A stretch of DNA of 64,000 nt from Marivirga harenae (lineage in GTDB: Bacteria; Bacteroidota; Bacteroidia; Cytophagales; Cyclobacteriaceae). Positions within the stretch are counted from its first letter, which is position 1. The number at the start of each line of letters is the position of its first letter. The notes beneath the pieces were generated by a model, which searched no databases, was not told where the DNA came from, and worked only from the letters and a program-made list of their open reading frames with translations. Position numbers and translations under genes: made by a program. Location of the stretch: assembly GCF_030534335.1 (NCBI RefSeq), contig NZ_CP130565.1, positions 2,811,501 to 2,875,500 on the forward strand, written 5' to 3'. This document shows positions 39,292-44,938 of the stretch, in pieces.

Positions 39292-40245
39292 TTAAAATAC
39301 TCCATCTGCAATCCTATAAATAGGATCCGATTTCCCCATAGAGTAGTAATGAAGGCATGGAGCACCAAATTCAATCAATTCTTTTGATTGTTGTATGCAC
39401 CAATCTATGCCTACTTCTTTTGCCGCAGCATTATCTCTGCATTTGTCCAATTCATCAACCAAAGTATCTGGTAAATCTAAATAGAAAGTCCGTGGTAATG
39501 CACTCATTTGCTTCAAAGAAGTTATGGGCTTTAAACCCGGAATGATGGGGACATTTATCCCTTCTGCTCTACACAGCTTTACAAATTCAAAGTATTTTTG
39601 GTTATCAAAAAACATCTGAGTAACCACATATTCAGCGCCTTTTTCTACCTTCTGTTTCAGGATTTTTAAATCTGATTTCATGCTTGGCGCCTCAAAATGC
39701 TTTTCAGGATATCCTGCAACACCTATACAGAAGTCAGTCGGTGTTGCAGATTGCAATTCTTCATCAATATATTTCCCGTGATTCATGCCTACCACTTGTT
39801 CCATTAAATCAATAGCATAGGCATGACCATTTGGATCTGGTACAAATTTATTTTCTGATTTTATGGGGTCTCCCCGTAAAACCAAAACAGAATCAATCCC
39901 TAAAAAATCAAGATCTATTAATGCATTCTCCGTTTCTTCTTTGCTAAATCCACCGCAGATAATATGCGGAACAGTATCGATATCGAATCTGTTTTTAATA
40001 GCAGCACAGATCCCTACAGTCCCAGGACGTTTCCTGGTTGTCCGTTTTTCTAATAAACCATTTCCTTTGTCTCGGTACACATATTCTTCTCTGTGATAGG
40101 TGACGTCAATAAAAGGTGGCTTGAATTCCATTAGAGGTTCTATGTTCTCAAACAGTGCTTTAATGTTCTGTCCTTTTAAAGGAGGTAAAATCTCAAAAGA
40201 GAATACAGTCTTTTTTGCGTTTGCTATATGTTCAGTTACTTTCAT
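39292..40245 (-). CDS. metF: 5,10-Methylenetetrahydrofolate reductase
   Basis: 317 residues, FAD-dependent. Makes 5-methyl-THF, the methyl donor for MetH. Seen: FSFEILPPLKG at the N-terminus (catalytic Glu), DVTYHREEYV, GICAAIKNRFDIDTVPHIIC, VLRGDP and GAEYVVTQMFFDN. It is 74 bp downstream of metH on the same strand, with a CTAGA-rich hairpin in the gap, and shares the SAM riboswitch at 44029-44144, forming a methionine regeneration operon. Confidence 0.97.
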   Translation of the reverse strand: MKVTEHIANAKKTVFSFEILPPLKGQNIKALFENIEPLMEFKPPFIDVTYHREEYVYRDKGNGLLEKRTTRKRPGTVGICAAIKNRFDIDTVPHIICGGFSKEETENALIDLDFLGIDSVLVLRGDPIKSENKFVPDPNGHAYAIDLMEQVVGMNHGKYIDEELQSATPTDFCIGVAGYPEKHFEAPSMKSDLKILKQKVEKGAEYVVTQMFFDNQKYFEFVKLCRAEGINVPIIPGLKPITSLKQMSALPRTFYLDLPDTLVDELDKCRDNAAAKEVGIDWCIQQSKELIEFGAPCLHYYSMGKSDPIYRIADGVF

Positions 40246-43300: not shown

Positions 43301-43976
43301 TCCAGAATGCTCCTACAGTCTGTCCGGAAAGCGTTCTCCCACTAGCATCGGTAATGGTGCCAGAAACCATAACTGGAATATCAATACCTTTTTCATCATT
43401 GAGTTCTTGAATTGCCATCAATGCAGCCTTACAATTCAGGGTATCAAAAACAGTTTCCACCAAAAATATATCGACTCCACCAACAGCCAAGGCTTCGGCT
43501 TGTTGTTTATAAGCAATCTTTAATTCATCAAAAGAAATAGCCCTGAAACCCGGACGATTTACATCCGGTGATAGGGACGCAGTTCTATTGGTTGGTCCAA
43601 TCGAACCTGCTACAAATCTTGGTTTATCGGAATATTCCTCGGTTACTTCTTTGGCAATTTTTGCTGACTGCTCATTGAGTTCCCAAACCAAATCCTGCAT
43701 ATCATAGTCTGCCATTGCAATGGTAGTGCCACTAAAGGTATTGGTTTCGATGATGTCAGCACCAGCATTTAAGTAAGCTCTATGAATATCCTTGATGATG
43801 TCAGGCTGTGTAAGGGACAACAGGTCATTATTACCTTTTAAATCAGAGGGGTAATCAGCAAAACGTTCTCCTCGGTAATCAGCTTCCGTGAGTTTATAGT
43901 TTTGAATCATGGTGCCCATTGCACCATCCAACACTAAAATTCTGTCTTTTAAAATATCTTTTGAAAATCGACTCAT
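40320..43976 (-). CDS. metH: Cobalamin-dependent methionine synthase
   Basis: 1218 residues, full length. Moves a methyl group from 5-methyl-THF to homocysteine via cobalamin. Four domains: homocysteine binding with the zinc Cys pair in [10 protein letters not shown] (about residues 305-315), pterin binding ([19 protein letters not shown]), cobalamin binding with [10 protein letters not shown] (His ligand) and the Ser motif GLSGLITPS, and a C-terminal reactivation domain with [15 protein letters not shown] (S-adenosylmethionine binding). Preceded by a SAM-I riboswitch with a 52-nt gap, as expected for feedback by SAM. Confidence 0.98.
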
Positions 43977-43997
43977 TCTGAATATTTATCATTTTTA

Positions 43998-44008
43998 TAT
44001 CCAGAAAG
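43998..44008 (-). promoter_or_regulatory. Segment complementary to the riboswitch 5' arm
   Basis: On the minus strand CTTTCTGGATA, lying 21-31 nt before the metH ATG. It is the exact reverse complement of TATCCAGAAAG at the 5' end of the SAM-I aptamer (44132-44142). Pairing of the two would break P1, so it is a likely part of the expression platform. Confidence 0.6.
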
Positions 44009-44028
44009 TGCCGTGAGAAAGGCTGTTT

Positions 44029-44144
44029 CTTATCTTTACCAGACTATCCGCCTGGATGGGAGTTAGCACCTTTTCCTTTTGCAAATGCATTGGAAGGGTT
44101 GCTAAGACTTCAAAGGGCCCAATCCCTCAGTCTTTCTGGATAAG
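44029..44144 (-). ncRNA. SAM-I (S-box) riboswitch
   Basis: 116 nt upstream of metH on the minus strand. P1 is CTTATC (44144-44139) with GATAAG (44034-44029). Conserved S-box core is present: GAGGGATTGGGCCC, GAAGTCTTAGCAACC, AAGGTGCTAACTCC, and a P4 stem with CCAG/CTGG. SAM-I aptamers bind S-adenosylmethionine and switch off methionine genes. Controls the metH-metF operon. No classical terminator with a T run is seen between it and the start codon, so control may act at translation or by other pairing. Confidence 0.97.
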
Positions 44145-44221
44145 TGAATCAAAGTAAAGCATAAAAAGCGAAATGGAAAAGTGATTGTTAAGAATTTTGT
44201 TTAATTGTCTATTGTTGATAT

Positions 44222-44938
44222 TCAGATAAGGGTAAGCATGTTTTTGTAAACAAAGCCTACCAAAATAGCAAGACCAAAACTTAATAATGTGCCAATTAAA
44301 ATGTATTCTGTAAGTTTTCGGTCCTTGGCTCTTGATAAATCACCGAAGCGAAATACTGATTTTGCGGCAATAAGAAAACCGATTGCTTGCCATTCTGCCA
44401 TCAACACAAAACTGAAAACAAATAACCTTTCTAACATGCCGATGTATTTTCCTGCTTTTGATAATGAATCAGAATCAGAGTCTTCTGGCAAATCCCATTT
44501 TGACATTATGACTTTTATCAAAACCGCAACTCCGTAGGTGATCAGCAGAATATTTAGTAATAAAAACAGTACATTATTAGAAAGCTCAAAATTGAAATTG
44601 ATCAGTTCAGGATAATAAAACGATCCTAAACCAATGATCACTGATAAATGAGCTATTTGGTCTAAGGCAAACAGGAATCTGCTGTTAATACTTTTTTCAA
44701 GATTGATTTTGATGATATCAATCAAATAATGACTGATAGGAATTATCAAGAAAGCCAACCAATATCGGGAATCCAGTTGCAATAGAATCAACAAAGCAGC
44801 TGCATGGATGATTATATGGAAATAAAGAAATTTTGATTTCGCTTTCTTTTGTTGCTTGTCTATTATCCAATGGTCTGGTTGAAACACAAAATCACCTAGT
44901 ACGTGGGCCACTAAGGTTTTGAGGAGAAATGAAATCAT
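44222..44938 (-). CDS. DUF3307 membrane protein
   Basis: 238 residues. Six or so hydrophobic helices. The N-terminus LLKTLVAHVLGDFVFQPDHW matches the DUF3307 family signature (HxxGDFxxQ), and ISHYLIDIIKINLEK follows. Function unknown. The start overlaps the stop of the SatD-like gene by 4 bp (ATGA), so the two are translationally coupled. This pair is seen in many bacteria and may be a regulatory unit. Confidence 0.87.
   Translation of the reverse strand: MISFLLKTLVAHVLGDFVFQPDHWIIDKQQKKAKSKFLYFHIIIHAAALLILLQLDSRYWLAFLIIPISHYLIDIIKINLEKSINSRFLFALDQIAHLSVIIGLGSFYYPELINFNFELSNNVLFLLLNILLITYGVAVLIKVIMSKWDLPEDSDSDSLSKAGKYIGMLERLFVFSFVLMAEWQAIGFLIAAKSVFRFGDLSRAKDRKLTEYILIGTLLSFGLAILVGFVYKNMLTLI

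Follow-up and report, generated by a model that had tools for sequence, protein, structure and literature searches.

The 64,000-nucleotide stretch of DNA analyzed here (the window) comes from the 4.37-Mb, single-contig genome of Marivirga harenae. On its minus strand, a SAM-I aptamer is followed by metH and then metF (Table 1), with 50 nt between the end of the aptamer match and the metH start. The metH product carries the Pfam domains Met_synt_B12, S-methyl_trans, Pterin_bind, and B12-binding, and its N-terminus is 90% identical to that of Marivirga arenosa. Judging by its position, metF would form one operon with metH. By reading the sequence, we find no AGGAG-like SD directly before the metH ATG.

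The SAM-I aptamer that a sequence-only reading had placed upstream of metH is borne out by the RF00162 covariance model, which scores it at 76.5 bits (gathering score, 44.4) and aligns it from model position 1 to 108, that is, as a full-length aptamer. Helices P1 to P4 and the conserved core are present, with a few non-standard pairs (at the ends of P1 and in P4), and 32 columns are invariant among 32 aptamers of the host family, that of the window included. By its aptamer, the leader is a SAM-I member, and it would be expected to bind SAM.

The TACTTTG box in front of the aptamer is close to TAnnTTTG, which we take to be the consensus of the Bacteroidota −7 box. A TAn(n)TTTG box ends 2 to 7 nt before the aptamer in 60 of 110 metH leaders (3 to 4 nt in 52 of the 110). 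When a wider interval is searched, 66 of 110 leaders have one, compared with 5.4 expected from mononucleotide shuffles. Transcription probably begins only a few nucleotides from P1 if this box functions as the Bacteroidota −7 element. The strand proposed below as the antisequestor would then be the mRNA's own 5′ end.

Table 1. The metH leader and the genes downstream of it in the window
Feature	Position	Strand	Basis
Putative Bacteroidota-type −7 promoter box TACTTTG, 3 nt before aptamer match	44150..44156	-	Sequence; presumed function
SAM-I (S-box) riboswitch aptamer	44027..44146	-	RF00162, 76.5 bits, E 3.4e-16
P1 5′ strand CTTATC	44139..44144	-	RF00162 alignment
Captured 5′ arm TATCCAGAAAG, putative antisequestor strand	44132..44142	-	11/11 Watson-Crick pairs with 44008-43998
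P1 3′ strand GATAAG, without strong platform capture	44029..44034	-	RF00162 alignment; shuffle test in relatives
AP segment CTTTCTGGATA	43998..44008	-	Complement of 5′ arm; also pairs with start region
Start region ATATTCAGAATGAGTCGA, pairs with CGGCACTTTCTGGATA in predicted sequestor hairpin	43968..43985	-	Duplex and fold
metH, cobalamin-dependent methionine synthase, 1218 aa	40320..43976	-	ORF list and Pfam
metF, methylenetetrahydrofolate reductase	39292..40245	-	ORF list and Pfam MTHFR

To compare leaders, metH N-termini were located in 81 of 82 genomes of the host family, with about one genome per genus. Of these 81, 79 were read, leaving out two short fragments (G022 and G069). The fetched metH DNA contains a SAM-I aptamer in 69 of the 79 genomes. 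Together with 38 aptamers found at 80 metH loci from named records, mostly Bacteroidota, and 8 loci from the host genus, this gave 115 leader rows. Three rows lacked a start codon (L147, L186, and L093), leaving 112 leaders; removing 9 rows with an aptamer-to-start distance outside 30 to 170 nt and 3 duplicates left 100 distinct leaders. Start codons were assigned purely by script (nearest ATG, otherwise GTG or TTG). The AP-start pairing and AP-blocking tests cover 83 of the 100 leaders, and the full-leader folds cover 90.

Pairing partners of the aptamer 5′ arm and the start region

The 5′ arm of the aptamer, TATCCAGAAAG, spans most of the P1 5′ strand, J1/2, and the beginning of P2. Its complement, the AP segment, ends 21 nt before the metH ATG (43976). 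The exact complementarity claimed in the sequence-only reading holds for every pair (11 of 11 Watson-Crick, 44142-44132 with 44008-43998). So does its claim that P1 and the long-range helix exclude each other, because both need positions 44142-44139. Of 20,000 dinucleotide-shuffled versions of the linker, 11 had a perfect 11-nt match within the aptamer's first 30 nt. Folding the leader with and without a forced P1, a check proposed in that reading, yields the alternative states. Unforced, the predicted fold contains the long-range helix between 5′ arm and AP (−53.9 kcal/mol); with P1 forced, it consists of the aptamer and a start-codon hairpin (−50.3 kcal/mol).

Within the genus, the metH leader is among the RF00162 matches in 8 of 9 other genomes, and TCCAGAAAG and CTTTCTGGA are kept in all 8. 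The ninth genome (G235, 88% complete) has two RF00162 matches, neither of them upstream of metH. The genus-level consensus fold predicts the helix between 5′ arm and AP, and it adds little covariation because these pairs hardly vary inside the genus.

Between AP and the metH start there is also an out-of-frame AUG. In the window it lies at 43990-43992 on the minus strand, and it occupies the same place in L034, L035, L040-L042, L053, L056, and L057. In seven of these (L034, L035, L040, L041, L053, L056, and L057), it opens an ORF of 7 to 8 codons that ends in ...YSE and whose UGA overlaps the metH AUG. The AUG of the window and that of L042 are in another reading frame than the ...YSE ORFs. 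Leaders L036, L037, and L137 have no out-of-frame AUG in this interval.

In 87 of the 100 leaders, the 16-nt 5′ arm forms a better duplex with its own linker than with dinucleotide shuffles of it (P ≤ 0.05); 58 leaders also pass P ≤ 0.01. The 87 comprise 62 of the 66 leaders from the family, all 5 further ones from the genus, and 20 of the 29 from named records. Thirteen leaders lie above P = 0.05 (L211, L188, L206, and L190; L116, L120, L069, L108, L063, L094, L082, L076, and L133). In contrast, only 4 of the 100 leaders pair the P1 3′ arm with the linker significantly better than with shuffles (P ≤ 0.05), and capture of the 3′ arm was rejected. These counts support the proposal of the sequence-only reading that the platform captures the 5′ arm and not the 3′ arm.

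The 5′ arm also matches its own linker better than those of other leaders. Mean duplex energy is −12.64 kcal/mol with own linkers versus −10.27 kcal/mol with swapped linkers (sd 0.21), a difference reached in 0 of 10,000 permutations. With one leader per genus, the values are −12.96 versus −10.60 (0 of 10,000; n = 65). The 3′ arm shows a slight and much weaker preference for its own linker (−8.01 versus −7.38, sd 0.18; 7 of 10,000).

The first base after P1, in J1/2, is A, C, or G and is unpaired in the Rfam aptamer structure. Pairing within P1 therefore cannot account for its covariation. With the register chosen without that base, it forms a Watson-Crick pair with its AP partner in 74 of 100 leaders (A-T in 38 of 49, C-G in 23 of 27, and G-C in 13 of 24). 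The base has changed at least 23 times on the metH tree. Null simulations in which the partner evolves independently on this tree gave a mean of 34 matches (sd 5.5 to 10), and 0 of 2000 reached 74 at each of five rates. An independent-pairs sign test had only 2 to 4 pairs on well-supported branches, too few to reach significance. Covariation of the two segments in related metH leaders, for which the sequence-only reading had suggested looking, is thus found (74 of 100 versus about 34 expected).

A third predicted partner, overlooked in that reading, is the metH start region, which also pairs with AP and would complete a three-way switch. In the window, the duplex between AP and the start region has an energy of −14.2 kcal/mol (shuffle P = 0.010) and covers about −9 to +9 of metH. 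Among the 83 leaders, the AP-start duplex averages −9.83 kcal/mol versus −7.17 kcal/mol with permuted start regions (sd 0.25; 0 of 10,000), and, with one leader per genus, −9.97 versus −7.45 (0 of 10,000; n = 61). Taken individually, only 34 of the 83 leaders reach P ≤ 0.05, and 18 reach P ≤ 0.01. The site of this clamp differs by lineage: AGAGAG just 5′ of the AUG, AAGAAAGAGTG over a GTG start, or AGAACCG within the first codons.

Full-leader folds point in the same direction. In the anti-P1 state, access to the start is higher by more than 0.05 in 62 of 90 leaders and lower by more than 0.05 in 5. This state is favored in the absence of ligand by a median of 3.1 kcal/mol, with 61 of 90 leaders between 0 and 10 and 5 of 90 above 10; in 24 of 90, the P1 state is predicted to be more stable even without SAM, under an energy model that ignores the kink-turn and the pseudoknot. 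In the window, the anti-P1 state is favored by +2.5 kcal/mol, and access to the start rises from 0.30 to 0.46. Blocking AP raises start access by a mean of 0.126, versus 0.075 for windows of the same length, and by more than 0.1 in 41 of 83 leaders. Only 33 of the 83 leaders place AP in the top quarter of windows of its length, and 13 have a negative gain (−0.24 in L115 and, within the genus, −0.09 in L040). This effect is modest, and the AP-start pairing test and full-leader folds therefore weigh more. Folds and duplexes together place a hairpin over the initiation region that is exclusive with the antisequestor, the arrangement by which a translational OFF switch is recognized.

Platforms at other SAM-I loci of the family

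The sequence-only reading had seen no T-run terminator between the aptamer and metH. We likewise find no terminator-like site in 43900-44260 and no run of 4 T in the linker, and a terminator platform was rejected for the window. A terminator-like hairpin was defined as a T-run, located between aptamer and start, that is preceded by 40 nt with a folding energy below −8 kcal/mol. Of the 13 leaders whose 5′ arm capture is not significant, 6 have such a hairpin (L116, L108, L094, L082, L076, and L133), versus 4 of the 87 with significant capture (L067, L087, L115, and L084). These linkers also run longer, leaving more room for the terminator test. The remaining 7 of the 13 have no terminator-like hairpin either. 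Thus, the outcome that the sequence-only reading had named as counting against its proposal, an aptamer kept while the complementarity is lost, is absent from 87 of 100 leaders and present in 13, 6 of which have a terminator-like hairpin. It seems from these sequences that the type of platform swaps at one gene, metH, between AP and a terminator-like hairpin.

Among the 30 best-scoring SAM-I loci of the host family (L004-L033), 18 have a terminator-like hairpin, and the genes that follow these include metX-, metB-, and hom-like genes (by eye). Judged by the 40 N-terminal residues of the ORF that follows, just one of these 30 loci, L023, stands before an intact metH; there, capture of the 5′ arm has P = 0.010. 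Of the other 29, 7 pass P ≤ 0.05 (L006, L010, L011, L017, L018, L019, and L031). The same threshold is passed by 4 of the 15 genus loci (L038, L043, L044, and L048) whose SAM-I aptamer is of a second type, TTTATA...TATAAA. Capture of the 5′ arm is therefore not confined to metH leaders.

Three loci (L012, L018, and L033) combine a SAM-I aptamer and a terminator-like hairpin with an ORF that starts like the middle of MetH (SGLEPL...NFVN.GERTNVTGS). These are apparently split metH genes with their own riboswitch.

The second aptamer type is directly followed by a short ORF, often with terminal cysteines. Of the 16 other SAM-I aptamers of the genus, 15 (L002, L003, L038, L039, L043-L046, L048-L052, L054, and L055) have an ATG −1 to +9 nt from their end; it opens an ORF of 42 to 49 codons whose last residues are rich in cysteine, as in ...MRMCMCCCC and ...ICCCSNCCC. 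In the exception, L047, whose contig runs on for about 500 nt, the ORF opened by the first ATG has 12 codons. The host genome has its own copies of the short-ORF aptamer at C1:548070-548173 and C1:4186043-4186135. Genes after the short ORF include a Cys/Met-metabolism PLP enzyme (PF01053) in L002 and L003 and OsmC in L054. In other genera, all 7 aptamers of the TTTATA type among L004-L033 have a short ORF with its ATG at +6 to +8 (L021, L022, L024, L026, L027, L029, and L030); its end is Cys-rich in several (MCCC in L024, ACCCT in L026, and CCCMMR in L021) and not in others.

Past the Cys codons and stop, most rows of L003, L038, L044, L048-L050, and L055 match in a CAACAAC-like stretch. The same loci have a TTTGGATT...AATCTAAA-like helix and, in several, AAAGG...CCTTTT (all partly by eye). 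These elements are as would be expected of an attenuator. The short-ORF loci of the genus may couple a SAM aptamer to a cysteine-sensing leader peptide, a combination to which we found nothing alike in the literature searched.

A probable three-segment switch and its alternatives

Read from the sequence, the leader comprises an aptamer and three mutually exclusive predicted pairings that are conserved and covary. We consider it very probable that this SAM-I riboswitch shuts off translation of metH, and probably of metF too, when SAM is plentiful, through competition among three segments. In the absence of SAM, the 5′ end of the leader (the P1 5′ strand, J1/2, and the start of P2) would pair with AP, 22 to 32 nt before the start, leaving the metH start codon accessible. 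Bound SAM would lock P1 and P2 and make the 5′ arm unavailable to AP. The freed AP would then fold forward onto the surroundings of the AUG (about −9 to +9) and block initiation. Since AP also pairs with the start region, formation of P1 by SAM should close the start codon, that is, a SAM-OFF logic acting on translation. AP is transcribed ahead of the start codon, and the choice could therefore be settled while the start codon has yet to emerge from the polymerase.

Furthermore, it is fairly likely that much of Bacteroidota has an SD-free translational platform of this type. The first ~14 nt of the mRNA would serve as both aptamer strand and antisequestor, and SAM would free a clamp for the start codon. 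At metH, this platform would replace the terminator platform, with other SAM-I leaders of the family using terminators or a short leader ORF.

The three-way switch could also have a mainly Rho-dependent output, whereby SAM lets Rho terminate the untranslated leader and early metH RNA and mRNA levels fall. Untranslated bacterial mRNA is a general Rho substrate, and several linkers are pyrimidine-rich (by eye). However, pairing of AP with the start codon itself would be superfluous for a pure Rho switch, and we infer an output through translation, regarding the Rho version as improbable. The reverse logic would have SAM turn metH on, with capture by the 5′ arm hiding an AP that, when free, would offer the ribosome a standby site or a pyrimidine-rich site to bind. 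In keeping with this logic, AP looks rich in pyrimidines (by eye), and its end falls 15 to 35 nt upstream of the start codon in 78 of the 100 leaders. Yet the start is predicted to be more open in the anti-P1 state in 62 of 90 leaders (less open in 5), AP and the start region match each other, and a methionine synthase switched on by SAM would amount to positive feedback from the pathway product. With the full-leader folds pointing the opposite way, SAM-ON logic was rejected as very unlikely.

A conventional SAM-I attenuator, which would rely on an intrinsic terminator and on capturing the 3′ strand of P1, has precedents nearby, given the terminator-like hairpins in 18 of the 30 best-scoring family loci and in 10 of 100 metH leaders. 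It is nevertheless highly improbable for the window, whose leader has no terminator-like site, and 3′ arm capture is significant in so few leaders. Lastly, the complementarity could be due to chance or follow merely from sequence conservation, since next to a conserved P1 arm a conserved AP would be enough to give the appearance of complementarity. The preference for own over swapped linkers, the covariation of the J1/2 base, and the rarity of the match among shuffles of the window linker argue against this, and leave it scarcely credible.

Relation to known riboswitches

In classic SAM-I riboswitches, switching involves a terminator together with P1's 3′ strand. The window leader resembles them in its full-length RF00162 aptamer and methionine-synthesis gene; it differs in having no terminator and in using the 5′ strand of P1.

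Another likeness is to the SAM-I riboswitch of Xanthomonas campestris (SAM-I Xcc), described in the portion of its report drawn on here as a translational OFF switch in which a SAM-bound platform hairpin hides the SD and AUG, and which also responds to uncharged initiator tRNA (PMC7270179). Like it, the window leader would act as a translational OFF switch that hides the AUG with SAM. Xcc also hides an SD, whereas the window metH ATG has no AGGAG-like SD directly before it. In the general scheme, as outlined by Barrick and Breaker, ligand binding to an OFF translational riboswitch breaks an antisequestor pairing and allows a sequestor hairpin to form over the RBS; in some SAM-I members, the RBS lies in the 3′ side of P1 (PMC2258182). 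Compared with that outline, the putative antisequestor in the window is the 5′ end of the aptamer, and its target is an SD-less start codon. P1 is commonly summarized as the switching helix, its 3′ strand forming the competing structure (PMC11477058). P1 would switch here too, but via its 5′ strand.

Bacteroidota lack an SD, and ribosome profiling in F. johnsoniae, as presented in the source consulted, ties initiation to structure in the start region (PMC6847099). How a riboswitch would control initiation is not obvious in a phylum without an SD, and a start-codon clamp provides a concrete, testable answer with covariation support. Among the titles and abstract openings searched, we found no description of a Bacteroidota SAM-I platform of this kind. 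The sequestor/antisequestor OFF logic is already known; what is new is the use of the P1 5′ strand and a clamp on an SD-less start codon. Switching through the 5′ strand runs counter to the usual summary of P1 switching through its 3′ strand. It also suggests that one aptamer class is combined with two or three platforms inside a single bacterial family, according to the target gene.
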